Source: an uncultured Eubacteriales bacterium (GTDB taxonomy: Bacteria; Bacillota; Clostridia; Lachnospirales; Lachnospiraceae). From it: a stretch of 64,000 nt of DNA. Under the pieces are notes generated by a model. It saw only the letters and a list, made by a program, of their open reading frames with translations. It ran no database searches and was not told the DNA's origin. The DNA lies in NCBI GenBank assembly GCA_900319795.1, contig ONPU01000014.1, forward strand, positions 1 through 64,000. The letters are read 5' to 3'. The position numbers and the translations under genes were made by a program. Positions 12,671 through 26,652 of the stretch are shown in pieces; the stretch's first letter is position 1; each line of letters begins with the position of its first letter.

Positions 12671-12790
12671 ACTGAGGTCTTCCTTACGCGGCTGGTCCGC
12701 ATCATGGAATGGGGTAGCGCCCCGCGAGCAGGTCACTGTCAGGCTGAGATTTTAAGCCCTAGTCAGATACATGGAGGAAGGCTGCACTTC
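12671..12790 (+). promoter_or_regulatory. Compact cobalamin (B12) riboswitch-like leader upstream of cbiK
   Basis: The leader can be folded in the order of known B12 riboswitches. An outer helix joins GTCTTCCT (12677-12684) and AGGAAGGC (12775-12782). Hairpin GCGG/CCGC (12688-12700) is followed by ATCATGGAAT, like the usual AATAGGGAAT. Then come hairpin GGGG/CCCC (12711-12723), a GCAGGTCACTGT segment like the L5 loop (12728-12739), a short hairpin GGCT/AGCC (12742-12758), and a B12-box-like AGTCAGATAC (12761-12770). The usual peripheral arms beyond P6 are missing. The next genes make or import corrinoids, and a perfect terminator lies just downstream. This was aligned by eye to remembered riboswitch sequences. 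Confidence 0.65.
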
Positions 12791-12856
12791 TATTCCAGCG
12801 CAGTAAAAGTGGTAACAAGCGGAAAGCCCGTTATGGGGATTCTGCTTTAAATTGCG

Positions 12857-12885
12857 TACCCGGAATAGTGATCCGGGTATTTTTT
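12857..12885 (+). terminator. Intrinsic terminator in the cbiK leader (riboswitch expression platform)
   Basis: TACCCGGA (12857-12864) pairs perfectly with TCCGGGTA (12872-12879) around a 7-base loop, followed by six T. It ends only 14 bases before the cbiK ATG and touches the ribosome site GGGAGG. A terminator directly before a gene it cannot serve as an end for implies conditional read-through. A second hairpin, GCGGAA/TTCTGC (12819-12845), lies just before it and may be an alternative fold. Confidence 0.85.
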
Positions 12886-12899
12886 ATGGGAGGAAAAAA

Positions 12900-13841
12900 A
12901 TGAAGAGAAGAATCATGATGGTTTTGACAGCACTGTTGACGACAACCGTTCTTCTGGGCAGTCAGACAATGGCAGCGGAACCCGCTGAGGACGAAGAAAA
13001 CTATGAGACCGGGGACGCGTCCGCCGACAATCCTCTTAATGAAGACGGTATCGGGGAATCCGAGCTGCTTGTCGTAAGCTTCGGAACGAGTTTTAATGAC
13101 AGCAGACGTTTGACAATCGGAGCGATTGAAAACAAGATGATCGAAGCATTTCCGGATTGGGATGTCCGCCGGGCATTTACGAGCCAGATCATTATCGACC
13201 ATGTCAAGAAGAGAGACAATGTCACCATCGACAATCTGAAAGAGGCACTGGACCGCGCGGCGGATAACGGAGTAAAGAAGCTGGTGGTGCAGCCGACGCA
13301 CCTCATGAGCGGCTTCGAATATACCGATGTGAAAAATGAAGTGGCCGAGTATGCCGATTCATTTGAAAAACTGGCTGTCGGGGAACCGCTGCTTACATCG
13401 GAGGAGGACTTCAAGGAAGTCATTTCCATCATCACGGAAGCCACGAAGGAGTACGATGACGGCGAGACCGCGATTATTTTTATGGGACACGGTACGGAAG
13501 CGGAGTCCAATGAGGTTTATTCAAAGCTGCAGACCATGATTACCGACGCCGGGTATGCGAATTATTATATCGGCACCGTCGAAGCCGAGCCGGGGCTGGA
13601 AGACGTGGTTCAGGCAGCGAAGGACGGGGGCTATAAAAAGGTGGTTCTGGAGCCGCTGATGATCGTCTGCGGCGACCATGCCAACAACGATATGGCCGGC
13701 GACGAAGAGGACTCCTGGAAATCCGTATTTGAGAAAGAGGGGTTCGAAGTAGAGTGCGTGATGCGCGGACTGGGAGAACTGCCTGAAATTCAGGATCTGC
13801 TGGCCGAGCACGCGAAAAAGGCGATTGAGGGCGTTCAATAA
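12900..13841 (+). CDS. cbiK: Exported CbiK-type sirohydrochlorin cobaltochelatase
   Basis: GGGAGGAAAAAA precedes the ATG. Residues 1-25 form a signal peptide (MMVLTALLTTTVLLGSQTMA, then AEP), so the enzyme should act outside the membrane. Residues about 45-313 are CbiK: VVSFGTSFNDSRRLTIGAIE, PTHLMSGFEYTDV, MGHGTE with metal-binding His near 197, and GDHANNDMAG with His near 260. CbiK inserts Co2+ into sirohydrochlorin at the start of anaerobic cobalamin synthesis. Desulfovibrio vulgaris has a periplasmic CbiK thought to serve metal or heme handling. Being first in an operon with an uptake ABC system and a riboswitch-like leader fits metal or tetrapyrrole acquisition, though the cobalamin genes downstream would also need a cytoplasmic chelatase. 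Confidence 0.9.
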   Translation: MKRRIMMVLTALLTTTVLLGSQTMAAEPAEDEENYETGDASADNPLNEDGIGESELLVVSFGTSFNDSRRLTIGAIENKMIEAFPDWDVRRAFTSQIIIDHVKKRDNVTIDNLKEALDRAADNGVKKLVVQPTHLMSGFEYTDVKNEVAEYADSFEKLAVGEPLLTSEEDFKEVISIITEATKEYDDGETAIIFMGHGTEAESNEVYSKLQTMITDAGYANYYIGTVEAEPGLEDVVQAAKDGGYKKVVLEPLMIVCGDHANNDMAGDEEDSWKSVFEKEGFEVECVMRGLGELPEIQDLLAEHAKKAIEGVQ

Positions 13842-13859
13842 AAGGATGGGGATCGTATT

Positions 13860-15722
13860 GTGATGAGAAAAACAAGGCTGATTTGCGCGCTTACGACGTT
13901 GAGCGTTCTCACGGCTGCGTGCTTCGGGCTTTCTTTGGAGACGCTGGGATCTGACCAGATCGCCGGAGAAGGGGAGACCGTCGAAGCGGTTGATGTCGTG
14001 GATGAAAATGCCGTCCCGGTGACCGCTCGGGATCTTCAGGACGGGACGTATGACATTTCCGTAGAATCGAGTTCTTCGATGTTTGTGATCGATTCGGTGA
14101 AACTCCATGTGAAAGACGGGACGATGGAAGCCGTCATGACCATGGGTGGAAAGGGATATTTGTATCTTTACCCCGGAACACCGGAAGAAGCGGTTGCGGC
14201 TTCGGAGAGCGAGTATATTCCTTTTGAGGAAGATGAAGCCGGCGCTCATACATTTACTATACCGCTGGAGTCCCTGAACACAGGCGTTGACTGCGCGGCT
14301 TTCAGTAAGCGAAAGCAGAAATGGTACGCGAGGACCCTCATGTTTCCGGCAGCGTCCCTTCCGCCGGAAGCGTTTAAAGAAGAATTTTTTACGACTCCTG
14401 CAAGCCTTGAACTGAAAGACGGCACATATACATGCGGGGTCGAACTTGCCGGCGGTTCGGGCCGTGCTTCCGTCGAGTCGCCGTGTACTTTTACGGTGAG
14501 CGAAGGGAAGGCGACGGCGCGGATCATTTTCAGCAGTCCGAACTATGACTATGTGATCGCGGACGGGGAGAAGTATTTGCCGGTCAATACCGAGGGGAAT
14601 TCCGCGTTTGAGATTCCGCTGAGTTACTTTGACTATCCAATGGCGATCAAGGCGGATACGACGGCCATGAGTGAGCCTCATGAGATCGAATATACGCTGA
14701 CATTTGATTCAAAAGCCATTGAGGAAGGAGGGGCCGCTTCCGAAAACGAAGCGGTCTCTTTTTTAACGGAGTACGCGCGGGAATTCTCCATGGAGCAGCA
14801 GGAGGACGGCAGCGTTCTTGTGACGATCGGGGAGGATTCCTACAAAGTGGATCATCCTTATACGAACATCTATCTGGCATCTTCGTCCGCGATGGATCTC
14901 TTTAAGAGTGCCGGAGCGATTGAAAACGTCACCATGACGGGAACACGTTCCGCGGACTGGGGAATACCGGAAATCCGGCAGATGGTGGAGGATGAAACGA
15001 TTGTTTATGCCGGAAAATACAGCATGCCCGACTATGAGTATCTCCTTTCGGAGAGATGCGATCTTGCAATCGAGAATACCATGATCTATCATACTCCGGA
15101 AGTAAAGGAAAAGCTGGAGGCTCTCGGAATTCCGGTGCTGGTGGAGCGTTCCAGCTATGAGCAGGACCCCTTTGGCCGAATGGAGTGGATCAAGCTTTAC
15201 GGGCTTTTGACTGGGCATTATGAGGAAGCCTGCTCATTTTTCGAAGAAAAAGTGAAAGAGCTGGAGGCCCTCGATGAGGAAGGCTTAAGCGGAAAACGGG
15301 TGGTATTTTTCCATATCAATTCCAACGGCCAGCCGGTGGTGAGGAGACCGGATGACTATGTTCCGAGGATGATTGAGATGGCCGGGGGAGAATATTTTCT
15401 TACGGAGTCTGACGGACAGGAGAACATGCGCTCCACTATGAATATGCAGATGGAGGCCTTCGTCGACGCGGCCAAAGACGCGGATATCCTGATCTATAAC
15501 AGCAGCATTGACGGCGAAGTGAAGGACCTGGACGAGCTTTTATCCAAGGAGGAGCTCCTCGGCGATTTCCGTGCATTCCGTGAAGGCGATGTGTGGTGCA
15601 CGGGCAAAAACCTGTTCCAGGAGACCTCCCATCTGGCAGACATGATTCTGGAGATGAACCGGATTTTCTCGGGGAACGCCGATGCGGGCGAGCCCCTCAA
15701 ATATTTCCGCAAGCTGGCGTGA
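13860..15722 (+). CDS. NEAT-like double-domain protein fused to a BtuF/FecB-type binding domain
   Basis: Start GTG 13860 (ATG 13863 is an alternative) follows AAAGGATGGGG. An N-terminal export signal ends near TAACFG, and lipidation is possible but the lipobox is imperfect. Two copies of an immunoglobulin-like domain follow: about residues 53-165 (DGTYDISVESSSSMF, LHVKDGTMEAVMTMGGKGY) and about 183-285 (DGTYTCGVELAGG, FEIPLSYFDY). Their layout resembles heme-binding NEAT domains. Residues about 315-615 are a cluster-A periplasmic binding domain like BtuF/FecB/IsdE (VLVERSSYEQDPFGRMEWI, LFQETSHLADMI). With the permease and ATPase that follow, this should import a corrinoid, heme, other tetrapyrrole or a metal chelate. 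Which one is not visible. Confidence 0.8.
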   Translation: MMRKTRLICALTTLSVLTAACFGLSLETLGSDQIAGEGETVEAVDVVDENAVPVTARDLQDGTYDISVESSSSMFVIDSVKLHVKDGTMEAVMTMGGKGYLYLYPGTPEEAVAASESEYIPFEEDEAGAHTFTIPLESLNTGVDCAAFSKRKQKWYARTLMFPAASLPPEAFKEEFFTTPASLELKDGTYTCGVELAGGSGRASVESPCTFTVSEGKATARIIFSSPNYDYVIADGEKYLPVNTEGNSAFEIPLSYFDYPMAIKADTTAMSEPHEIEYTLTFDSKAIEEGGAASENEAVSFLTEYAREFSMEQQEDGSVLVTIGEDSYKVDHPYTNIYLASSSAMDLFKSAGAIENVTMTGTRSADWGIPEIRQMVEDETIVYAGKYSMPDYEYLLSERCDLAIENTMIYHTPEVKEKLEALGIPVLVERSSYEQDPFGRMEWIKLYGLLTGHYEEACSFFEEKVKELEALDEEGLSGKRVVFFHINSNGQPVVRRPDDYVPRMIEMAGGEYFLTESDGQENMRSTMNMQMEAFVDAAKDADILIYNSSIDGEVKDLDELLSKEELLGDFRAFREGDVWCTGKNLFQETSHLADMILEMNRIFSGNADAGEPLKYFRKLA

Positions 15723-15724
15723 AA

Positions 15725-16012
15725 TGCACCACAGGGGTCTGGCACCTTTGGTGCAGATTAAGTTCAGGTCCGTGCTGAATTCTATCGTTTCAAACTACTT
15801 TTGAGGCGCCTTTAGGGATTGGCGAGACAAGCTGCTTAGTAAGACTTGGGAGCGAAGGGGCTCCCCGGTCCGAGGGGAGACCCGAGAGCGAGTTAGTCGC
15901 ACTTGGCAGGTGGCTCGACAACCCGTTGCCGGGTAGTTTGAAATGATAGAATTCAGTGAGGACTGGAAGGTGACAAGATAGTGCACCAAAGGTGCCAGAC
16001 CCCCGTGGTGCA
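15725..16012 (+). mobile_element. 288-bp imperfect palindromic element (MITE-like) inside the transport operon
   Basis: The ends are 31-base inverted repeats (15725-15755 and 15982-16012) with one mismatch, each beginning TGCACC and ending GGTGCA and carrying the GGTGCCAGACCCC motif or its complement. Inner arms of 36 bases (15763-15798 and 15933-15968) pair with about seven mismatches. The centre contains GGGGCTCCCC facing GGGGAGACCC. The whole element could form one long hairpin as DNA or RNA. It starts 2 bases after the stop of the binding-protein gene and ends 15 bases before the permease ATG. It encodes no credible protein. It is either a non-autonomous mobile repeat or a structured RNA between two operon genes. 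Confidence 0.85.
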
Positions 16013-16027
16013 GGTGGGCGATGAAGT

Positions 16028-17047
16028 ATGAATGATAAGAGAAGAAAACGGTATATCGTTGGATTCCTGCTGCTGACCGCAGCAGTTGTAATTCTGCTGC
16101 TTCTGAACCTCGGCACTGGAAGTGTCCGGGTGTCGCCGGAAGAGATTCTGAGTATACTGGTAAAAGGAGAGACCGCCGGAACAAAAGCCGGCATTATATT
16201 GGATATCCGTATTCCGCGGCTGCTGGCGGCACTGATACTGGGTGGGGCGCTGGCCGTATCGGGGTTTCTGCTGCAGACCTTTTTCGCGAATCCGATTGCG
16301 GGCCCGTTCGTCCTCGGGATTTCCTCCGGATCCAAGCTTGTGCTCGCACTGGTGATGATCGCCAGTGTGAATACGGGCCGGATGCTCGGATCTGCCCAGA
16401 TGATCGGAGCTGCTTTCGTAGGCGCGCTCGGCTCGATGCTGGTGATCCTCATGATCTCCCAACGGGTTCAGAAAATGTCGGTGCTCGTGATCTGCGGGGT
16501 CATGATCGGCTATATCTGTTCCGCAGTGACCGATTTTGCCGTCTCTTTCGCGGACGATTCGAATATTGTGAACCTGCATCACTGGTCGATGGGCAGCTTC
16601 TCAGGGATGAGCTGGAACGACATTCGAACGATGGCAGCTGCAGCCGGGATCGCGTTGGTCCTCACATGTCTGCTGTCCAAACCGATGGCGGCATATCAGA
16701 TGGGAGACGTCTACGCGGCGAGCGTCGGTCTGAACCTGAAGCGCTTCCGGGTGGAACTGATTCTCATATCGAGTATCCTGTCCGCTCTGGTTACGGCCTT
16801 CGCGGGGCCTGTTTCCTTTGTGGGAATCGCGGTGCCGCATCTTATGCGCTCTCTGTTTAAAACGGCGAAGCCGGCCATTCTCATTCCGGGCTGCTTCCTC
16901 GGAGGCGGCGTATTCTGCCTTCTCGCAGATCTTCTGGCCCGGACCCTGTTCGCGCCGACAGAGCTGAATCTGAGCTCGGTTACCGCACTCCTCGGAGCAC
17001 CGGTCGTCATCGCCGCCATGCTGAAACGCAGCAAAAACAGATATTGA
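16028..17047 (+). CDS. FecCD/BtuC-type ABC transporter permease
   Basis: The 339-residue protein has about nine to ten membrane segments and the FecCD family signatures: RIPRLLAALILGGALAVSGF, then NPIAGPFVLGISSGSKL, and SFVGIAVPHLMR near 255-270. It should form the homodimeric channel for the substrate delivered by the preceding binding protein. No good ribosome site stands before ATG 16028 because the palindromic element ends 15 bases upstream, so translation may depend on the fold of that element. The following ATPase gene begins 50 bases after its stop. Confidence 0.92.
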   Translation: MNDKRRKRYIVGFLLLTAAVVILLLLNLGTGSVRVSPEEILSILVKGETAGTKAGIILDIRIPRLLAALILGGALAVSGFLLQTFFANPIAGPFVLGISSGSKLVLALVMIASVNTGRMLGSAQMIGAAFVGALGSMLVILMISQRVQKMSVLVICGVMIGYICSAVTDFAVSFADDSNIVNLHHWSMGSFSGMSWNDIRTMAAAAGIALVLTCLLSKPMAAYQMGDVYAASVGLNLKRFRVELILISSILSALVTAFAGPVSFVGIAVPHLMRSLFKTAKPAILIPGCFLGGGVFCLLADLLARTLFAPTELNLSSVTALLGAPVVIAAMLKRSKNRY

Positions 17048-17097
17048 TTTGGAAAATGAATTCCGTAAGAAGTCAGCTCCGGAAAGGAGAGCCGCCT

Positions 17098-17862
17098 ATG
17101 GCAGAGGAACAAATTTTATATACGGAAGGACTGGATGCGGGGTATTCCGGAAATGCAGTGGTCCGGAATGTTTCCATCAGCCTTAGCCCCGGACAGCTGA
17201 TTGCGCTCATAGGTCCGAACGGCACGGGAAAATCCACCATCCTGAAGACCCTTTCGGGAATGCTCCCTCCGGTCCGCGGCAGCGTCTGTCTGAACGGCAG
17301 GGATCTGAAAACAGTTCCTGAAAATGAAAGAGCACGCACGATCTCCCTTCTCATGACAGACAGGATCGATCCCGAGCTGATGACCTGCCGGGATGTGGTG
17401 AGCCACGGCCGCTATCCTTATACAGGGTTTACCGGACGTCTTTCCGCAAGGGACCTCGAGGTGATTGACAGCTCCTTTCGGGCCGTCGGAGCCGAGGACC
17501 TGAAGGACCGGTATTTTTCGCAGATCAGCGACGGTCAGAGACAGCGGATTCTTCTGGCCAGGGCCATCGCTCAGGAACCGAAAGTGCTGATCATGGATGA
17601 GCCGACCTCCTTTCTGGATATCCGTCATAAGATCGAACTCCTCAGGATCCTTTTAAAGCTGGTCAAAGAGGGGGGCGTTGCGGCGGTCATTTCCCTGCAC
17701 GAAATTGAGCTGGCACGCAAGACGGCCGACAGCGTGATCTGCGTAAAGGACGGAAGAGCGGAAACCGTGGAACATGTACAGGATGTCTTTCAGGAGGAAG
17801 CCCTGTGCTCCTTATTCGATCTTGACGAAGAACAGTATCATTGGTTGTATGGAACGGATTGA
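17098..17862 (+). CDS. BtuD/FecE-type ABC transporter ATPase
   Basis: Start ATG 17098 follows GGAAAGGAGAG. The 254 residues have Walker A GPNGTGKST, signature ISDGQRQR (LSGGQ variant), Walker B VLIMDEPTS and switch His in ISLHEIE. Size and motifs fit the ATPases of the iron-siderophore, heme and B12 uptake family. It powers the FecCD permease upstream. cobT starts 12 bases after its stop, so transport and cobalamin synthesis genes probably share one transcript. Confidence 0.93.
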   Translation: MAEEQILYTEGLDAGYSGNAVVRNVSISLSPGQLIALIGPNGTGKSTILKTLSGMLPPVRGSVCLNGRDLKTVPENERARTISLLMTDRIDPELMTCRDVVSHGRYPYTGFTGRLSARDLEVIDSSFRAVGAEDLKDRYFSQISDGQRQRILLARAIAQEPKVLIMDEPTSFLDIRHKIELLRILLKLVKEGGVAAVISLHEIELARKTADSVICVKDGRAETVEHVQDVFQEEALCSLFDLDEEQYHWLYGTD

Positions 17863-17874
17863 CAGGGGAAAATA

Positions 17875-18939
17875 ATGGATTTAATGCAGACAATGGAGCG
17901 AATCGTTCCTCCATATGAAAAAGCGGAAGCGGCATGCCGCAAGCACTGGAACAGCCTCGGAAAACCGCTCTACGGACTGGGCGAGTTCGAGGAGATTCTG
18001 GTCAGGATCGCGGGTATGCAGCGTACGCCGATGCCGGATATCCGGAAAAAAGCGCTTGTGGTATTCTGCGCGGACAACGGGGTTGTGGCGGAAGGCGTCA
18101 GCCAGACCGGCCGGGAAGTGACGGCGATCGTCGCCGAAAACTTCGTGGACGGACGTTCCTGCGCGTCGATTATGTGCAAAAGAGCAGGAGCGGATCTGTT
18201 TCCGGTGGACGTCGGAATGGCGCGGGATACTCGCGTGGAGATGCGAAAATGCCGTCAGGGCACGTCGAATATCGCGCAGGGACCGGCAATGAGCCGCGAA
18301 GAAGCTGTATTTGCCATTGAAGCGGGCATCGAGAAGGCTGAGGAACTGGTTCGGTCAGGCTATCGGATTCTCGGCTCCGGTGAAATGGGGATCGGAAATA
18401 CCACGACTGCCTCTGCCGTGTCTTCGGTACTTCTTAAAAAAGACCCGGAGGAAATGGCCGGATACGGCGCCGGCCTTACCGACGAAGGGCTGATCCGCAA
18501 AAAAGAAGTGATCCGAAGAGCCATTCGAATCAACAGACCGGATCCGTCTGATCCGATCGACGTTCTTTCAAAAGTCGGAGGTTTCGATATCGCCGCCATG
18601 GCCGGACTCTTTCTCGGAGGCGCGGCATCAGGCATTCCCGTAGTGATTGACGGTCTGATCTCCGCCGCCGCAGCCATGCTGGCAGTTCGTATGGCACCGC
18701 TTTGCCGGTCCTATATGCTCGCTTCCCATATGTCGTCAGAACCGGGAGTCGAAACCATTTTCCGGGCTCTTCAGATCGATCCCGTCATCCATGCGGGCAT
18801 GCATCTGGGAGAAGGAACCGGGGCGGCGGCGCTGTTTCCGCTGCTGGATATGTGCGCGGACGTTTATTACGGAATGGCGACATTTGACGGGATTTCCGTA
18901 CCGGCCTACGAGGATTATCATAAAAAGGAAACGAGATGA
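17875..18939 (+). CDS. cobT: Nicotinate-nucleotide:dimethylbenzimidazole phosphoribosyltransferase
   Basis: This 354-residue protein makes alpha-ribazole phosphate, the lower ligand precursor of cobalamin, from a base and nicotinate mononucleotide. It shows CADNGVVAEGVSQTG near the N-terminus, GEMGIGNTTTASAV in the middle and HLGEGTGAA near the C-terminus with the catalytic Glu at about 313 (Glu317 in Salmonella CobT). Length is typical. Its last four bases overlap the cobU start (ATGA), indicating coupled translation. Which base it activates (dimethylbenzimidazole, adenine or other) cannot be told from sequence. Confidence 0.96.
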   Translation: MDLMQTMERIVPPYEKAEAACRKHWNSLGKPLYGLGEFEEILVRIAGMQRTPMPDIRKKALVVFCADNGVVAEGVSQTGREVTAIVAENFVDGRSCASIMCKRAGADLFPVDVGMARDTRVEMRKCRQGTSNIAQGPAMSREEAVFAIEAGIEKAEELVRSGYRILGSGEMGIGNTTTASAVSSVLLKKDPEEMAGYGAGLTDEGLIRKKEVIRRAIRINRPDPSDPIDVLSKVGGFDIAAMAGLFLGGAASGIPVVIDGLISAAAAMLAVRMAPLCRSYMLASHMSSEPGVETIFRALQIDPVIHAGMHLGEGTGAAALFPLLDMCADVYYGMATFDGISVPAYEDYHKKETR

Positions 18940-19544
18940 AAGACCGGGACACAAATCAGGGAAAACTGATCCTTATCACGGGCGGGGCATCAAGCGGAAA
19001 ATCCGAATACGCGGAGAGTCTTGCCGTGTCCATGAATACAGAGCCAAAGGCACAGACGCTTTGGTATCTGGCGACGATGCATCCGGATCTAAAAGATCCG
19101 GAGACCGTCAGGCGCATCGAAAAACACCGAAAGGCGCGCGAGGGAAAAGGGTTCCGGACAGTCGAGCAGGAGCGGGATCTCATGATGATCATGGATCTGT
19201 TCCGAAAGGGCGACATCATTCTCATGGAAGACCTTCCGAACCTGCTCGCGAATGAGATGTTTTCGCCCGCGCTCGCTGAGGATCCCGAGGGAATGTCGAT
19301 TCTTCAATCGAGGGCAGCACTCTATGCTTTTCTCGTAAGAAAGATTCTTCATCCGCTCAGCCAGTGGAAAGAAAACGGGATCCGCATTCTGGTGGTCGGA
19401 AGCAGAATTTCCGAAGACCTGCTCGCTGTGGATGAGAGCGTCGCCGCATACAGCGACGGCCTGATGTTCGTTCAAAGGGAGCTCGGAAAAATGGCGTCCG
19501 CAGTGACGGAAGTGGTATGCGGAATCCCTCTTTGCTGCAAATGA
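18936..19544 (+). CDS. cobU: Adenosylcobinamide kinase / guanylyltransferase
   Basis: The 202-residue protein shows P-loop GGASSGKSEYAE near residue 13, WYLATMHPDLKDPETVRRI, and the HRKAREGKGF region that carries the guanylylated His in CobU, followed by DLMMIMDLF and MEDLPNLLANEMF. It phosphorylates adenosylcobinamide and then attaches GMP, the activation step before CobS. The motifs are intact, in contrast to the CobU-like domain fused to CobQ two genes on. Start ATG 18936 overlaps the cobT stop. Confidence 0.92.
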   Translation: MKDRDTNQGKLILITGGASSGKSEYAESLAVSMNTEPKAQTLWYLATMHPDLKDPETVRRIEKHRKAREGKGFRTVEQERDLMMIMDLFRKGDIILMEDLPNLLANEMFSPALAEDPEGMSILQSRAALYAFLVRKILHPLSQWKENGIRILVVGSRISEDLLAVDESVAAYSDGLMFVQRELGKMASAVTEVVCGIPLCCK

Positions 19545-19585
19545 AAACAGATGACCGGGCAGAAAATGCCCGTAAGGAGACATAC

Positions 19586-20440
19586 ATGAACATAAAATCG
19601 TCAATCCTCAACAGCATCCTGGCTGCATTTGCTTCGTATTCCAGGATACCGGTGCCGGCAGCCGACTGGGATGAAAATAAGACCCGGTGGCAGATCTGCT
19701 TTTTCCCTCTGGTGGGAGCGGTAATCGGAATCTTCTGGTGTGTCGCGGCTGCGGGGCTGACAGCCGTCGGGACGGAGCCGGTACTGACGGGGGCAGTGCT
19801 GACCATTCTGCCTGTTTTTTTGACGGGCGGAATCCATATGGACGGTTTCCTCGATACCTCTGACGCAATGCATTCCTGGAGATCGAGCGAGGAGCAGATG
19901 CGCATCCTGGATGATCCCCATATCGGCGCGTTCGCGTTTATCTATGGCAGTTTTTATCTGATTCTCTATTTCGGTTTTTCCGTTCAGCTGGCTCAGATTT
20001 TAAGAGAGATCTTTTTGGGAAATGCCGCATTTGCGGGCTTACTGGGCAGATCGGCAGGGACTCTGGTACCTGTGGCTTCCTGCTTTATTATCAGCCGGGC
20101 ACTCAGCGCGCTGGCCGTGATCTATTTTCCAAAGTCGAGAAAGAACGGGTCCTTGAAAAAAGCAGCAGACGCAGCGGATCCGAAGGCCGGTACTGTCGTG
20201 AAGGTGACTCTGGCGGTTCTGTTCGCTGCTTTTATCATCAGCTCGGTACTCTTTAAAATGCCCGCACTCCCGCTTCTTCCGGCCGCGGCAGTTCTGTTCA
20301 TGTACAGATACCGTAGTATGGCAATGAAGCGCTTCGGCGGCATCAGCGGAGACCTGGCCGGCTGGTTTCTTGTAAACTCAGAGCTGATCATGCTGGCTGT
20401 CGGGGTCATTCTGCTGATGCTCCGTTTCACCGCGGTCTGA
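19586..20440 (+). CDS. cobS: Adenosylcobinamide-GDP ribazoletransferase (cobalamin synthase)
   Basis: Start ATG 19586 follows GTAAGGAGA. The 284-residue membrane protein has the CobS motifs YSRIPVP, GGIHMDGFLDTSDA and DDPHIGAFA, with several hydrophobic segments through the C-terminal half. It joins adenosylcobinamide-GDP with alpha-ribazole (phosphate) at the membrane, the last assembly step. The middle region around residues 165-210 contains a Lys-rich insert. It lies 42 bases behind cobU. Confidence 0.93.
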   Translation: MNIKSSILNSILAAFASYSRIPVPAADWDENKTRWQICFFPLVGAVIGIFWCVAAAGLTAVGTEPVLTGAVLTILPVFLTGGIHMDGFLDTSDAMHSWRSSEEQMRILDDPHIGAFAFIYGSFYLILYFGFSVQLAQILREIFLGNAAFAGLLGRSAGTLVPVASCFIISRALSALAVIYFPKSRKNGSLKKAADAADPKAGTVVKVTLAVLFAAFIISSVLFKMPALPLLPAAAVLFMYRYRSMAMKRFGGISGDLAGWFLVNSELIMLAVGVILLMLRFTAV

Positions 20441-20485
20441 AGCACACGGTGAATGGCGAAGTGACGGGAATCGAAGGAGAAGAAG

Positions 20486-22990
20486 ATGCTTTATTTCATA
20501 ACAGGCGGAGAGGGAAACGGTCAGGAGGAATACGCGCGGGAGCATTTTCCGGAAATGACAGTTTTCGGTAATTATCTCAAAACGGTGGAAGACGAGCTGC
20601 ATAAGGGGGAGGACCCTCTCCTGAAGGCGGAAGAGCTTCTTCGGTCTTTCGCGGATTCGGATCTGGTGATCTGGACCTGCGAAACCGGCTGCGGCATTGT
20701 GCCCGCGGACGCGGCGGCAAGGAGACTGAGAGAGGTTTCGGGACGGGTCAACTGCTATTTCGCGAAGAGGGCCGCCATCGTCATCCGTATGGTGTGCGGG
20801 ATCGGAACTGTCATAAAGGACACCCGTTCCGGACAAACGGATTTCCCGCATGCCGGAAAAAAAGCCCGCCGGGCCCGTTCGATCATGGTGCTCGGAACCA
20901 TGTCCGGTGCCGGAAAAAGCCTGATCGCGGCGGGACTTTGCAGGATTTTTGCTGACGACGGATACAGTGTTGCCCCGTTTAAGGCCCAGAATATGGCCCT
21001 GAACTCCTTTGTTACGGAAAACGGGGAGGAGATGGGGCGGGCCCAGGCGGTACAGGCCGAGGCCTGCCGGCGGAAACCGGACGTCCGCATGAATCCGATT
21101 CTTCTGAAGCCGACCACGGACAAGGGCTCCCAGATCATCGTGATGGGCCACCCCGTCGCGGATATGGGAGCAGCGGAGTACTACAGGAGGAAACAGGAGT
21201 ATCTCCCCTATGTGGAGGAAGCCTTTGAATCCCTTGCTTCTGAAAATGACATCCTCGTACTCGAAGGGGCAGGCAGTCCCGCCGAGATCAACCTGAAAGA
21301 GCATGACATCGTCAATATGAAAATGGCGTCCTTCGCGGATGCCCCGGTCATCCTGGTCGGAAATATCGACCCCGGAGGGGTTTTCGCGCAGCTCTACGGC
21401 ACGGTCATGCTGCTCGATGAGAATGAGAGAGACCGGATCCGGGGACTGATCATCAACAAATTCCGGGGTGATCTGTCGATCCTCGAACCCGGGATCGGCA
21501 TGCTGGAAGAAAAAACAGGAAAGAAAGTGCTGGGCGTGGTTCCGTACGCGGATCTCAATCTGGAGCCGGAGGACTCTCTGGATATGGAAGAGCGTCTCTT
21601 AAGAAAAGACGCGTCCGGGATCGGTCCAAAAACTTCCGCCCCTGATTTTCTGGACATCGCTGTAATCCGGCTGCCGAAAATATCCAATTTTACGGATTTT
21701 GAAGCCCTTCACATGGAACCGGATGTGCGGATTCGCTACATTTCCGATCCGTCGGAACTGAAAGAACCCGATCTGATCATCCTGCCGGGAACGAAAAGTA
21801 CAATCGCGGATCTTACATGGCTTCGACAGACAGGGCTTGAAAAGGCCATTCGCGAAGCGCATGCAGGAGGCAGTTTCCTCATGGGAATCTGCGGAGGCTA
21901 TCAGATGCTCGGAAGAACGATCAGCGATCCGGAGGGCATGGAGAACCGGAACGAGATGGAGGGAATGGGTTTTCTCGGCATGGACACGGTATTTTTCGGG
22001 GAAAAAGTCCTGAAACAGACCGAGACGCTGTCCGATTTCGGGATCCCGGAAATCGACGGGAAGAGAATCCGCGGATACGAGGTCCATATGGGAAAAGACG
22101 GAAGCGGCATGAGGGAAAGCCGCGGAAATGGCAGCGTCATCGGAACGTATATTCACGGCGTTTTTGACGAGGAGGAATTCCGAAGCGCTTTCCTTGAGTA
22201 TCTCATTTCCCGAAAAGGCGGGAAAAGGGATTTGGCCGGTACGAGCGGTAAAACTTACCGTGAGTTCAAAGAGGAACAGTATGTGAAACTGGCTCAGCTT
22301 TTGAGAGAGCATCTGGACATCCCGGAACTCTATCGGATGATGGGACTTATGCCGCGCAGCTGTCTGAAACCTGCGGAGATTGAGAAAAGAAGTTTTGAGA
22401 TCCTGACCGGGGAGCTTAAGGAGCAGGGGATCGTCCTGAAAGGAGATACCGCGCCGGTCATCCAAAGGTGCATTCACACCACGGCAGATTTCGACTATGC
22501 CAAAACGCTCTGCTTTTCGCCCGGGGCAGTTCCGAAACTGGAAGAGCTGATCCGTTCCGGCGCGACGATCGTGACGGATACCAATATGGCGCTTTCGGGG
22601 ATCAACACGAGAGAACTTCAGCGATACGGTGCGAAAGCATGCTGTTTTATGGCGGATGAGGAAGTGGCGCGAGAGGCGGCGGAACGAGGCATTACCAGGG
22701 CTTCCGTCAGTATGGAAAAGGCGATGAGGCTTCCGGGGACGGTGGTATTTGTCTCGGGAAATGCTCCCACAGCCCTAATGACACTCTGGGAACACTATAC
22801 GAATGGCGATTACAATCCCGCATTTATCATCGGCGTTCCCGTTGGTTTTGTAAATGTGGAGTCTGCCAAAGAGCTGATCATGGGCACGGAGATTCCCCAC
22901 ATTGTCAACCGCGGGCGCAAAGGCGGCAGCAACGTTGCCGCAGCCATTGTCAACGCCGTGCTCTACGGAATGAGGGACCGGACGCGATGA
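20486..22990 (+). CDS. cobQ-cbiC: Fusion: degenerate CobU-like domain + CobQ/CbiP + CbiC
   Basis: GAAGGAGAAG precedes the ATG. Residues 1-115 resemble CobU (TCETGCGIVPADAAARR, then VCGIGTVIKD), but the P-loop reads GGEGNGQEE and lacks the Lys, so kinase activity is doubtful. Residues about 131-610 are cobyric acid synthase: P-loop GTMSGAGKS, PFKAQNMALNSFVT, GNIDPGGVFAQLYGT, and a glutamine amidotransferase with Cys near 469 (GICGGYQ) and His near 557 (TYIHGVF). It amidates four side chains of the corrin ring. Residues about 620-834 are CbiC, the precorrin-8 methylmutase, with catalytic His near 663 (RCIHTTADFDYA). The stop overlaps the cbiD start. Confidence 0.9.
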   Translation: MLYFITGGEGNGQEEYAREHFPEMTVFGNYLKTVEDELHKGEDPLLKAEELLRSFADSDLVIWTCETGCGIVPADAAARRLREVSGRVNCYFAKRAAIVIRMVCGIGTVIKDTRSGQTDFPHAGKKARRARSIMVLGTMSGAGKSLIAAGLCRIFADDGYSVAPFKAQNMALNSFVTENGEEMGRAQAVQAEACRRKPDVRMNPILLKPTTDKGSQIIVMGHPVADMGAAEYYRRKQEYLPYVEEAFESLASENDILVLEGAGSPAEINLKEHDIVNMKMASFADAPVILVGNIDPGGVFAQLYGTVMLLDENERDRIRGLIINKFRGDLSILEPGIGMLEEKTGKKVLGVVPYADLNLEPEDSLDMEERLLRKDASGIGPKTSAPDFLDIAVIRLPKISNFTDFEALHMEPDVRIRYISDPSELKEPDLIILPGTKSTIADLTWLRQTGLEKAIREAHAGGSFLMGICGGYQMLGRTISDPEGMENRNEMEGMGFLGMDTVFFGEKVLKQTETLSDFGIPEIDGKRIRGYEVHMGKDGSGMRESRGNGSVIGTYIHGVFDEEEFRSAFLEYLISRKGGKRDLAGTSGKTYREFKEEQYVKLAQLLREHLDIPELYRMMGLMPRSCLKPAEIEKRSFEILTGELKEQGIVLKGDTAPVIQRCIHTTADFDYAKTLCFSPGAVPKLEELIRSGATIVTDTNMALSGINTRELQRYGAKACCFMADEEVAREAAERGITRASVSMEKAMRLPGTVVFVSGNAPTALMTLWEHYTNGDYNPAFIIGVPVGFVNVESAKELIMGTEIPHIVNRGRKGGSNVAAAIVNAVLYGMRDRTR

Positions 22991-24102
22991 GTGAACAGAA
23001 AGAACCATATGTCTTTACTACGGGAAGCTGCGCCGCGGCCGCGTCGAAAGCGGCGGCTTTTATGCTGATCTCCGGGAAAAGGAAAGAACAGATCCGAATA
23101 GAGACTCCGGCCGGCATCCCGTTTGAGGTAAAGCTTCAGAATATCGAAATCGAGGAAGGACGGGCCTTTTGCGCTGTGCGCAAAGGATCCGGTGAGGATC
23201 CGGATGTGACAGCCGGCTGCCTCATATGCGCTCTGGCGGAACCTTCCGCGGACGGAAAAGGAGAAGTGATGATTTCCGGCGGGGAAGGAGTCGGAGTCGT
23301 CACCCGCCCCGGACTCGACCAGAAGGTGGGAAATGCCGCGATCAACTCCGTCCCGAGAAGCATGATCGAAAAAGAAGTAAAGGAAGTCATGTCCTTCCTC
23401 GATTATCACGATTCGGTCCGGATTACGATCTCCGTTCCGAACGGCCTTGAGCTTGCCGAAAAAACCTTCAATCCGAGACTGGGGATTGAGGGCGGTATTT
23501 CCATAATCGGAACGAGCGGCATCGTGGAACCGATGAGCACGAAAGCTCTTCTTATGACGATCCGTCTGGAGCTGCGCCAGCGAAAAGAGTGCGGAGAACA
23601 AATCGCGGTCGTGGCGCCGGGGAACTATGGAATGCATTTCCTGAAAGATTATTACAGGTATGATCTGGACCACGCCGTCAAATGCTCGAATTTCATCGGC
23701 CAGACCATCGATCTGGCAAAGGAAGAGGGTTTTACGCGTCTCATTCTCGTCGGACACGCGGGAAAACTGGTCAAGGTTTCGGGCGGCATTATGAATACGC
23801 ATTCCAAAGAGGCGGACTGCCGCATGGAACTGATCGCGGCTGCTGCGGTACGCTGCCATACCCCTTCGCGGGCAGTCCTCGAGATCCTGGACGCGGCCAC
23901 CACGGAGGAAGCCTGCGGCATCCTGAAGAAAGAGGGAAAGCTGCAGGAGTGTTTTGCTCTCATTACAGACCGGATCTCTTATCATCTGAATAAAAGGGCA
24001 GGGGACCGCATGGACGTACAGTGCATTGTCTATTCCGTTGAGTACGGAATTTTAGGGAAGACCGGCAGGGCTGAAGAGTATCTTAGGGAGGTGACGGAAT
24101 GA
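22987..24102 (+). CDS. cbiD: Cobalt-precorrin-5B C1-methyltransferase
   Basis: This 371-residue protein begins with the CbiD signature FTTGSCAAAASKAAAFML and continues with GEGVGVVTRPGLDQKVG and GTSGIVEPMSTKAL. CbiD uses S-adenosylmethionine to methylate C1 after ring contraction and is a marker of the oxygen-independent route. ATGA overlaps at both ends (with the CobQ-CbiC fusion and with cbiF) indicate tightly coupled translation. Confidence 0.96.
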   Translation: MSEQKEPYVFTTGSCAAAASKAAAFMLISGKRKEQIRIETPAGIPFEVKLQNIEIEEGRAFCAVRKGSGEDPDVTAGCLICALAEPSADGKGEVMISGGEGVGVVTRPGLDQKVGNAAINSVPRSMIEKEVKEVMSFLDYHDSVRITISVPNGLELAEKTFNPRLGIEGGISIIGTSGIVEPMSTKALLMTIRLELRQRKECGEQIAVVAPGNYGMHFLKDYYRYDLDHAVKCSNFIGQTIDLAKEEGFTRLILVGHAGKLVKVSGGIMNTHSKEADCRMELIAAAAVRCHTPSRAVLEILDAATTEEACGILKKEGKLQECFALITDRISYHLNKRAGDRMDVQCIVYSVEYGILGKTGRAEEYLREVTE

Positions 24103-24866
24103 TTTCGTTTGTAGGAGCAGGACCGGGCGCGGCGGATCTGATTACCGTGCGCGGAAAGCGTCTTCTGGAAGAAGCGGATGTGGTGATCTACGCGGGAAGT
24201 CTCGTCAATCCGGAACTTCTCAGTTATGCGAAAAAGGATGCGGCGCTGTATAACAGCGCGAAGATGACACTGGAAGAGCTGACGGACGTAATGTGCCGCG
24301 CACATCAGGAAGGCCTGAATGCAGTCCGTCTTCACAGCGGCGAGCCCAGTATCTACGGAGCCGTGCGCGAGCAGATGGACCGTCTGAGAGAGCTGGGCAT
24401 TCCGTATGAGTCCTGTCCTGGGGTGAGCGCCTGTTTCGGTGCGGCTGCCGCGCTCAATCTGGAATATACGCTGCCGGGGGTTACACAGACCCTCATCATT
24501 ACCAGAATGGAAGGAAGGACTCCCGTGCCGGAGGAGGAGAAGATCGAGAAACTGGCCGCCCACCGCTCTTCGATGGCCATTTACCTCAGCTCCGGCATGC
24601 TGGAACAGCTGAGTGAAAGGCTTATGGCAGGGGGCTATCCAGCGGATACGCCGGCAGCCCTCGTCTATAAAGCGACGTGGCCTGAGGAACAAAAGATCCT
24701 CTGTACGGTAGGAACTCTTGGCGAAGCCGGTGCTTCGAATGGGATTGACCACAGTGCGGTCGTTCTCGTCGGGGACGCGGTCAAACCGGACAGCTATCTT
24801 CGGTCCGGACTTTATGATCCGTATTTTTCACACGGTTTCAGAAGCAGTAAAATGAGCAGCGAATGA
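24099..24866 (+). CDS. cbiF: Cobalt-precorrin-4 C11-methyltransferase
   Basis: This 255-residue tetrapyrrole methylase has SAM-binding FVGAGPGAADLITVRG at the start, DVVIYAGSLVNPELL, GEPSIYGAVREQMDRL and TRMEGRTPVPEEEKI, all typical of CbiF/CobM. It methylates C11 in the cytoplasm before CbiG opens the lactone. Length is normal. Its start overlaps the cbiD stop. Confidence 0.95.
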   Translation: MISFVGAGPGAADLITVRGKRLLEEADVVIYAGSLVNPELLSYAKKDAALYNSAKMTLEELTDVMCRAHQEGLNAVRLHSGEPSIYGAVREQMDRLRELGIPYESCPGVSACFGAAAALNLEYTLPGVTQTLIITRMEGRTPVPEEEKIEKLAAHRSSMAIYLSSGMLEQLSERLMAGGYPADTPAALVYKATWPEEQKILCTVGTLGEAGASNGIDHSAVVLVGDAVKPDSYLRSGLYDPYFSHGFRSSKMSSE

Positions 24867-24886
24867 TTTCGAAAGCGGAGGAAGAG

Positions 24887-25855
24887 ATGAAGAAAGCAGC
24901 AATCTGTTTTACCCAAAAGGGGCAGGAACTGGCCTTGAGGATCAATGCCGCCGCCCGGGCGGCAGGTCTTGTTGATACGGGAGAGGAGTATTTGCAGCTT
25001 TCATTCAAGTGCTCTCTTTCGGAGTGGGTCGGGCTGCATTTTCAGGAACATGATGCCCTGATCTTCATTGGAGCCACGGGGATTGCCGTTCGTGCAATCG
25101 CGCCGTTTGTAAGGGATAAACTGACAGACAGTCCGGTAATCGTCATTGACGATCTGGGGCAGTTTGTCATTCCCCTTCTTTCCGGGCACGCGGGAGGAGC
25201 CAATAAACTGGCGGCTACAATCGCGGAGCTGATCGGAGCCGTTCCGGTGATTACGACCGCGACGGATCACCACGGAGCCTTCTCCGCCGATGTCTTTGCC
25301 TCCGAATACGGCCTTCAGATCGCCAACCGCGAGGGCATCAAAAAAGTATCCGCCAAAGCGATCGAAGGGAAGCCCGTTACGCTGTCCGTAAAGAACTATC
25401 CGCCCGAAGAGCCGGTGGATCTCATCGTGGCGGATGAGACGGACCGGGAGTACTCGCTTCTTCTGAAACCGAAGCCCTATACGCTGGGGGTCGGTATGAA
25501 GCGGGATACGGATGCGTCCCGGGCGGAGGAGTTCTTCCGAAAGATTCTTTCGGAAAATGAAATCTCAATCGGAGAACTCTACGCGGTCTGCACCATCGAA
25601 TGCAAGCGCGATGAGCCGGCTATCCGTACATTTTGCAGAAAATACAGTCTTCCGCTGATCACCTTCGACACGGAGCTGCTGAAAAAGGCGCAGGGAGAAT
25701 TTACTTCTTCCGCGTTTGTCGAGAAGACCGTGGGCGTTGACAATGTATGTGAAAGAGCGGCAGTGCTCGGGGCCGGTCCCGGAGGAGAGCTGATCATGAA
25801 AAAACACTCCGGCGGAGGAATTACAGCCGCGATCGCTAAAAGACGCGGGGTTTGA
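24887..25855 (+). CDS. cbiG: Cobalt-precorrin-5A hydrolase
   Basis: ATG 24887 is preferred because AGCGGAGGAAGAG precedes it; ATG 24863, overlapping the cbiF stop, is also in frame. The 322-residue protein shows GATGIAVRAIAPFVRDK, LLSGHAGGANKLA and ATDHHGAFSAD of CbiG, and the C-terminal CobE/CbiG domain (LGVGMKRDTDASRAEEFF). It opens the delta-lactone and releases acetaldehyde. The short 54-base gap to cbiH is one of the few spacers in the operon. Confidence 0.94.
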   Translation: MKKAAICFTQKGQELALRINAAARAAGLVDTGEEYLQLSFKCSLSEWVGLHFQEHDALIFIGATGIAVRAIAPFVRDKLTDSPVIVIDDLGQFVIPLLSGHAGGANKLAATIAELIGAVPVITTATDHHGAFSADVFASEYGLQIANREGIKKVSAKAIEGKPVTLSVKNYPPEEPVDLIVADETDREYSLLLKPKPYTLGVGMKRDTDASRAEEFFRKILSENEISIGELYAVCTIECKRDEPAIRTFCRKYSLPLITFDTELLKKAQGEFTSSAFVEKTVGVDNVCERAAVLGAGPGGELIMKKHSGGGITAAIAKRRGV

Positions 25856-25909
25856 TGAGCTTAAAAGTCGCGGAGACTGATGAATAAACAGAAACGGGGT
25901 TGAAGTGAG

Positions 25910-26641
25910 ATGGACAAAAGAATCTTTGTGGTGGGAATCGGACCGGGAGACAAAGGCATGCTGACACCGGATGCCTATAAGGCACTCCATGCTTCGGATG
26001 TTCTCGTGGGATACCCGCTTTATCTGGATCTTCTGGGAGAAGAATTCGCGGAAAAAGAGCAGCTTTCCACTCCGATGCGGAAGGAGAGAGAGCGCTGTGT
26101 TCTCTGCCTTCAGGAAGCGGATAAGGGGAAGACGGTGTCCCTTGTCTCAAGCGGAGACCCGGGGGTTTACGGCCTCGCGTCTTTGATGCTGGAGGTCGGA
26201 AGGGACCGGCCGGATATCCCGATCACCGTGATTCCGGGAATCACAGCTGCGCTCTCGGGAGCGGCTGTATTGGGAGCTCCGGTCAATCACGATTTCTGCC
26301 TGATCAGCTTAAGCGATCTCCTTACTCCCTGGGAAGTGATCGAGAAGCGCCTTTGCGCCGCGGCTGCCGGGGATTTCGTAATTGTGATCTACAATCCCGC
26401 GAGCCGCAAAAGGCCGGAGCATCTGAAGAAAGCCGTGGAGATCCTGCTTCGAAGCCTGCCGGGAGAGCGGCCCTGCGGCCTTGTTGAGAATATTGGCAGA
26501 GACGGCATGAAATCGGAGATCTGCACGTTGGCAGAACTTGGACGGAAAGAAGCCAATATGTTCACGACAGTCTTTATCGGCAGTTCGGCGACCGAAGTGA
26601 TCGGGGGCAGGCTGGTGACGAAAAGAGGCTATTCAAGATAA
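25910..26641 (+). CDS. cbiH: Cobalt-precorrin-3 C17-methyltransferase
   Basis: This 243-residue tetrapyrrole methylase has VVGIGPGDKGMLTPDA at the start, SSGDPGVYGLASLMLEV, ISLSDLLTPWEVIEKRL, and VIYNPASRKRPEHL, which identify CbiH/CobJ. It methylates C17 and drives ring contraction with lactone formation. The ribosome site (GAAGTGAG) is weak compared with its neighbours. Confidence 0.95.
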   Translation: MDKRIFVVGIGPGDKGMLTPDAYKALHASDVLVGYPLYLDLLGEEFAEKEQLSTPMRKERERCVLCLQEADKGKTVSLVSSGDPGVYGLASLMLEVGRDRPDIPITVIPGITAALSGAAVLGAPVNHDFCLISLSDLLTPWEVIEKRLCAAAAGDFVIVIYNPASRKRPEHLKKAVEILLRSLPGERPCGLVENIGRDGMKSEICTLAELGRKEANMFTTVFIGSSATEVIGGRLVTKRGYSR

Positions 26642-26652
26642 GGGCGGAAGAG

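Follow-up and report, generated by a model that had tools for sequence, protein, structure and literature searches.

The CbiK chelatase of Desulfovibrio (CbiKP) is located in the periplasm. As far as the accessible part of PMC545781 goes, a B12 element in that genus controls cbiK-cbiL and btuCDF. A second described arrangement is the Iht system of Porphyromonas gingivalis, with an exported CbiK-like lipoprotein (IhtB/FetB), a binding protein, a permease, an ATPase and a TonB receptor; the portion of the source available to us calls it hardly characterised and thinks that it takes iron from heme (PMC10913741), and a review, in its accessible sections, has FetB inserting manganese into protoporphyrin (PMC13402209). 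Here we consider a locus in a 64,000-nucleotide stretch of DNA from an uncultured Eubacteriales bacterium of the Lachnospiraceae (contig ONPU01000014.1, positions 1 to 64,000; the whole stretch is called the window), in which an apparently exported CbiK-family chelatase is followed by a binding protein with two NEAT-like domains and a FecB/BtuF-like domain, a FecCD-type permease, an ATPase and cobamide genes. This module is related to Iht, but bears NEAT-like domains and is linked to B12.

With Iht the module shares the exported CbiK-like protein, the binding protein, the permease and the ATPase, and FetB (9b86) matches the window CbiK at E 8.6e-44. It differs in its NEAT-like domains, in the B12 riboswitch of its relatives and in the cbi cluster that comes after it, whereas Iht, in the part of its description available, is not said to contain NEAT domains, includes a TonB receptor and has been interpreted as a heme/iron system. 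No TonB-dependent receptor turned up among the genes scanned next to the module, though no genome-wide search for one was made. A CbiK-like lipoprotein that is exported and works with a binding protein, a permease and an ATPase had already been described as Iht in the available text of PMC10913741, so the original prediction of an undescribed system is not supported in the form in which it was made. The accessible open-licence PMC literature gave no account of the module itself, nor of a CbiK joined to a NEAT domain. Like the Desulfovibrio CbiKP system, the module combines a CbiK-family chelatase (2xvx, E 9.7e-30), a B12 element and a BtuCDF-type transporter; unlike it, the module has NEAT domains and, in half of the 32 genomes examined, goes with a missing early pathway, neither of which is reported for Desulfovibrio in the text available. 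The NEAT-like domains are akin in fold and profile to the Isd-type NEAT proteins (IsdH, IsdB, IsdX1, IsdX2, IsdC) and to Shp, but they are distant in sequence and sit in one chain with a FecB-like protein; in relatives they also occur fused to a chelatase. With BtuFCD the module shares the clustering of a FecB/BtuF-like binding domain, a BtuC-like permease and an ATPase, but model cut-offs are missed and an exported chelatase and NEAT-like domains are added.

The last point of comparison is a phenotype. Tetrapyrrole precursor salvagers, in the accessible text of Shelton et al. (PMC6461909), have corrin and loop genes but lack those of early tetrapyrrole synthesis, and either uptake or a novel route is left open there; a later review, as far as available, puts precorrin-2 salvagers at 0.6% of genomes (PMC8123684). 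The window's genome (G000), which is 82% complete, resembles these salvagers, having corrin genes without HemB, HemC or CobA. Beyond that phenotype, for which the accessible text names no transporter, we propose a candidate for the importer and a step that takes place outside the cell. We lean toward the view that the module serves the salvage of a sirohydrochlorin-level tetrapyrrole, which would be loaded with cobalt outside the cell, imported and used for cobamide synthesis. A fuller version, which we put forward tentatively as a real possibility, is that a B12 step has moved outside: a surface cobaltochelatase with NEAT-like domains would make cobalt-sirohydrochlorin out of rings that neighbouring organisms release, and a dedicated importer would feed it to a corrin pathway that has lost its first third, supplying the missing uptake route of the precorrin-2 salvagers.

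Which genomes carry the module, and what can they make for themselves? Scanning genomes for the binding protein located 80 loci, most of them in Lachnospiraceae, and 32 genomes that encode this protein were examined for pathway genes. CbiK is present in all 32, as a single copy in 26, and none of them has a CbiX outside the CbiK frames. HemC is found in 16, and CobA exceeds its cut-off in exactly those 16; HemB occurs in ten genomes, all of them HemC-bearing, and SirC is over its cut-off in the 16 and also in G011 and G026. HemB, HemC and CobA are all absent from the other 16 module genomes, G000 included, and the corrin genes are kept. With these three enzymes lost, uroporphyrinogen III, precorrin-2 and sirohydrochlorin should not be made, and that half of the 32 genomes are without the enzymes for sirohydrochlorin suggests that tetrapyrrole is salvaged in order to make cobamide. 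What had been predicted as tetrapyrrole or cobalt acquisition can thus be narrowed toward the former. One of the 16 HemC-lacking genomes, G023 (3.2 Mb), carries the module on a contig of 3.19 Mb, and in 14 of the 16 the module CbiK is the only CbiK.

The association extends across the order. An order-wide set of 393 genomes, with at least 90% completeness as its threshold and the window's own genome included, has CbiK in 215, HemC in 155 and CbiC in 208. The 208 genomes with CbiC divide into 128 with HemC (121 with CbiK) and 80 without (75 with CbiK). CbiK neighbourhoods were read in all 75 of the latter and in 75 of the 121 HemC-bearing genomes, a non-random sample of best-scoring CbiK matches taken roughly in listing order, whose last set was chosen to include long frames and two-CbiK genomes. 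Exported CbiK was found in 65 of the 75 corrin makers without HemC but in 25 of the 75 sampled ones with it (p 2.0e-11); in the worst case, with all 46 unsampled genomes counted as exported, the comparison becomes 65/75 versus 71/121 (p 2.8e-5). By genus the counts are 35 of 37 versus 16 of 41 (p 1.6e-7), and with these an effect of a single clade was rejected, related genera being not fully independent. Within genus g13, exported CbiK is the only kind in the genome without HemC, and two of three sampled HemC-bearing genomes have both kinds. Exported CbiK was the only kind found in 63 of 75 HemC-lacking and 17 of 75 sampled HemC-bearing genomes. The fetched stretches, which reach about 6 kb downstream, contain a NEAT-like domain in 62 of the 65 HemC-lacking and 21 of the 25 HemC-bearing exported cases, and a NEAT-like domain, binding protein, permease and ATPase together in 47/65 and 17/25. 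This genomic association is strong.

The window locus runs from the leader through CbiK, the binding protein, the permease and the ATPase to cobamide genes that extend to position 29601:

12684..12815 (+), conserved element of the leader whose core resembles that of a cobalamin riboswitch (CACTG ... AGTCAGATAC), near-invariant in the window and L001-L003
12856..12886 (+), intrinsic-terminator-like hairpin of 9 bp and then a T run, directly 5' of CbiK (fold of 12820-12892, z -2.34)
12900..13841 (+), CbiK-family (class II) chelatase of 313 residues, predicted exported, signal at about residues 1-25 (PF06180, E 9.6e-86)
13863..15722 (+), binding protein of 619 residues, probable lipoprotein (LTAAC near residue 19), predicted structure with mean predicted local distance difference test (pLDDT) 86.6
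13998..14370 (+), NEAT-like domain 1 of the binding protein (profile and fold searches)
14394..14738 (+), NEAT-like domain 2, homologous to domain 1 (profile and fold searches)
14880..15611 (+), FecB/BtuF-like substrate-binding domain (Peripla_BP_2, E 9.8e-24, residues 340-583)
15725..16012 (no strand), 288-bp inverted-repeat element between binding protein and permease, with 31-nt ends that are 97% complementary
16028..17047 (+), FecCD/BtuC-like permease (FecCD, Pfam, E 2.8e-75)
17098..17862 (+), ATP-binding cassette (ABC) ATPase, FecE-like (ABC_tran, Pfam, E 7.3e-31)
17875..29601 (+), cobT, cobU, cobS, cbiP-cbiC, cbiD, cbiF, cbiG, cbiH and cbiJ-cbiE-cbiA (Pfam/NCBIfam scans)

The window CbiK matches the Pfam CbiK model over residues 56-310 with 287.8 bits (cut-off 26.2). 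Its N-terminus (MKRR, a hydrophobic core, then TMAAEPAED) resembles a Sec signal and has no lipobox Cys, in which it differs from the CbiK of most relatives; from its sequence and from those relatives, it looks like an exported protein. Export was called by a rule of our own, using hydrophobicity and a lipobox, and by hand for L111 and L129 (exported) and L203 (cytosolic). In L203 the CbiK, which lacks a signal peptide (SP), is fused behind a CbiH-like methylase, CbiH being judged by eye. Does the exported protein keep the chelatase site? The active-site residues E89, H145 and H207 (Salmonella numbering) are kept in the window CbiK, in all 157 other exported-type rows with a letter there, and in 74 of 74 SP-less rows. 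We therefore rejected the idea of the exported CbiK as a degenerate binder; these residues do not separate the two kinds. Against the NCBIfam equivalog model for sirohydrochlorin cobaltochelatase (NF047852) the window protein scores 239.5 bits, not reaching the cut-off of 400. The nearest solved structures are Salmonella CbiK (1qgo, E 9.7e-45), FetB (9b86, E 8.6e-44) and 2xvx (E 9.7e-30), which we take to be Desulfovibrio CbiKP. In a tree of 193 CbiK rows, built by a quick method, all 125 exported rows fall within one group of 133, together with eight SP-less rows; the support of this group is 93, under the tree's own mark of 95, and the starred branches force at least three changes, so that a single origin of export is not established.

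The two N-terminal domains of the binding protein are distant in sequence from known NEAT domains. Pfam NEAT finds no match in the window protein's own domains at E up to 1, and phmmer with the binding protein alone against PDB gave chance-level rows only; a NEAT scan of the window's own genome also gave no match, but neither did the controls of that scan. Collecting relatives changes the picture. We gathered 316 NEAT-like domains from 256 frames, in which both domain types are homologous, and a profile of 29 of them found only NEAT entries in PDB, five in number (4h8q 5.7e-4, 4h8p 7.3e-4, 3sz6 3.2e-3, 3sik 3.8e-3, 2k78 0.27). Pfam NEAT itself matches 12 of the 29 profile members, with a best E of 2.2e-5. 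AlphaFold gave a pLDDT of 89.7 for the NEAT-like tandem and 86.6 for the full protein, and in a Foldseek search with the predicted tandem, rows 1-16 were all NEAT proteins or Shp. By target length, the better single NEAT chains have template-modelling scores of about 0.62-0.66, versus 0.25-0.28 with a large root-mean-square deviation for two-domain chains, which supports the fold of the domain but not the arrangement of the two. The kinship of these domains with NEAT is thus supported, by profile and by model. The heme-ligand motif of NEAT domains is YxxxY. Domain 2 has HxxxY in 11 of 15 rows and YxxxY in the other four, the register of the alignment to known NEAT domains being unsure. The FecB-like domain resembles, in Foldseek, the binding proteins for heme, siderophores and B12 (BtuF included) alike.

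How constant is the module? CbiK lies within 3.5 kb upstream of the binding protein in 70 of the 71 loci that have at least 1.3 kb of upstream sequence (L035 is the exception), the permease lies 3' of the binding protein in 80 of 80 and the ATPase in 75 of 80, so that co-occurrence as a local accident was rejected. A cob/cbi gene lies inside the fetched stretch at 56 of 80 loci, many of these stretches being short. The 80 loci hold 74 CbiK frames, of which 59 have a lipobox signal, six a plain signal and two none, with seven unclassed. The CbiK of many relatives carries a fused NEAT-like domain on its N- or C-terminal side, and L099 has signal, CbiK, two NEAT-like domains and a FecB-like binding domain in a single frame of 941 residues. 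Such fused proteins link chelatase and NEAT-like domains, although some of the frames flagged as containing NEAT show short overlaps (L100, L131). Much of the original prediction is thereby borne out: the export signal is predicted in the window and in 65 of 74 relatives' CbiK frames, the NEAT kinship and the co-occurrence hold, and the FecB/BtuF-like domain, the FecCD permease, the ATPase and the downstream cobalamin genes are confirmed. L060 and L065 place the module on two contigs labelled as a Treponema metagenome-assembled genome, for which transfer and misbinning are both possible.

The leader had been predicted to be B12-responsive, and here the evidence is divided. The window leader matches no Rfam family at cut-off, and the cobalamin riboswitch family, RF00174, does not appear with the threshold relaxed to E 5 or 10; a permissive search returned other families alone, at E 0.47 and above. 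A single-sequence fold of the leader element is no better than shuffles. In relatives, RF00174 sits 107-346 nt 5' of the exported CbiK in 11 of 15 scanned; the four without it are L001, L002, L003 and L013. In L018 it lies between a cytosolic and an exported CbiK. The core pattern of the window leader is found in three of 242 loci, L001, L002 and L003, which share the terminator as well. The window element is therefore a candidate for a divergent cobalamin riboswitch: the B12 link of the window leader has indirect support, from RF00174 in relatives and from the shared element and terminator, and the window itself gives no direct match. A different RNA, TwoAYGGAY (RF01731), occurs near the module in Pseudobutyrivibrio (L021:5822-5981, minus strand).

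How might such a module work? A B12-regulated leader would turn the operon on when cobamide is short, as RF00174 in relatives suggests for the window. The exported CbiK, at or near the membrane, would by its signal act outside the cytoplasm, where NEAT-like domains, on the binding protein or fused to CbiK, may keep the tetrapyrrole close to the chelatase. CbiK would then load cobalt into scavenged sirohydrochlorin, or exchange the metal of siroheme, as the known reaction of its family suggests, and the FecB-like domain would pass the product to the FecCD permease and its ATPase. In the cytoplasm, the Cbi enzymes, whose genes are present, would build the corrin ring and the Cob enzymes the cobamide. 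Such a sequence would give an entry to B12 synthesis to cells that have lost HemB, HemC and CobA. If this is correct, genes can be named for the precursor-salvage phenotype, its substrate is predicted and hosts are available in culture, and bacteria of the rumen and gut would be shown to exchange precursors of the B12 ring. It would also mean that metal insertion in a vitamin pathway can be extracellular, and that NEAT-like domains are used beyond heme. It would further suggest re-reading Porphyromonas Iht as cobamide salvage, instead of or besides iron-from-heme uptake; salvage would explain how P. gingivalis manages without the steps to precorrin-2 that it is said to lack in the available text of PMC6461909.

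Several observations weigh against salvage. The completeness of the window genome, 82%, makes its gene absences weak when taken alone. The window CbiK matches FetB, a heme protein, as well as it matches Salmonella CbiK, so that the score leaves both a role with cobalt and one with heme possible. Could the module then be for heme or iron acquisition, like Iht, with the exported CbiK removing iron from heme or changing the metal of the porphyrin, the NEAT domains binding heme and the product being imported? The NEAT proteins matched by fold and profile are heme binders, FetB matches at the E value given above, the four inner components of Iht are the same and Iht, in the accessible text of PMC10913741, is proposed to take iron from heme, and FetB makes Mn-protoporphyrin according to the available part of the review (PMC13402209). 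We consider this unlikely, however, since RF00174 in 11 of 15 relatives, the cob/cbi genes at 56 of 80 loci and the link to HemC loss all point to cobamides.

A second set of difficulties concerns the form in which the ring enters the cell. Among the NCBIfam models the best for the permease is BtuC, at 215.5 bits; the ATPase scores 203.4 bits against the FecE model, short of its cut-off of 375. In eight of the 16 HemC-lacking genomes (G005, G015, G016, G018, G022, G028, G029 and G030), which lack HemB and CobA as well and have corrin clusters, CbiL is absent save for weak cross-matches from other methylases. Cobalt-sirohydrochlorin would be insufficient in these eight unless another enzyme acts or a later ring is imported. 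One might think, therefore, of a BtuFCD-type importer of cobinamide, cobyric acid or a cobamide, for which CbiK and the NEAT domains would be extra binders of corrinoid or cobalt. Such an importer would account for the CbiL-less genomes, and the B12 riboswitch of the relatives agrees with it, as do the permease's best model and the fact that BtuF is one of the structures matched by the binding domain. The permease is nonetheless below the BtuC cut-off of 334, import of a late intermediate needs neither an intact chelatase site nor corrin-ring genes, and the tie of exported CbiK to HemC loss would be left unexplained. We regard a corrinoid importer as quite unlikely.

The remaining difficulties concern which CbiK is where. 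Seventeen of the 75 sampled HemC-bearing genomes have exported CbiK only, which leaves internal cobalt insertion there unexplained, though a SirC/CysG-type enzyme could possibly perform it. Conversely, ten of the 75 HemC-lacking genomes, five of them from one genus, have only SP-less CbiK, and five further HemC-lacking genomes with CbiC have no CbiK at all. Two of the 16 HemC-lacking module genomes, G022 and G023, have a second CbiK in a short frame. In HemC-lacking G264 an SP-less fusion of CbiK with a tetrapyrrole methylase, the latter probably CbiL, lies beside a binding protein, a permease and an ATPase (L116:5248-6774, minus strand); G156 and G167 have a second SP-less CbiK next to a permease and an ATPase, and in G156 a FecB-like protein is there too. 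In these three genomes the link between chelatase and importer persists where the chelatase lacks export. Does the ring perhaps enter without metal, the exported CbiK stripping iron from siroheme in reverse and another enzyme adding cobalt inside? G264, with its transporter and cytosolic fusion, fits this scheme, as does L031, in which an ATPase-CbiK fusion occurs besides an exported CbiK, and FetB is considered a possible dechelatase in the accessible sections of PMC13402209. But 26 of the 32 module genomes have no second CbiK, and there is no separate CbiX, so that no known internal cobalt-inserting enzyme is left to them, and we hold import of metal-free sirohydrochlorin to be unlikely too. 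Salvage with cobalt loading outside is the reading that we continue to prefer.

The fusion in L031 (10676-12619, genome G017) is a frame of 648 residues that joins an ABC ATPase to CbiK, with an unassigned stretch between. SP-less ABC-ATPase-CbiK fusions also occur in HemC-bearing genomes (L170, L180, L191, L192, L199, L204, L205, L209, L214 and L215), where they are perhaps the ATPases of cobalt importers.

The 288-bp element between the binding protein and permease genes of the window resembles a miniature inverted-repeat transposable element, and is apparently no part of the function of the module. Its end sequence has no match in any of the 242 loci, and in L001-L003 the corresponding gap is about 30 nt. 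Within the element lies a second, inner inverted repeat.

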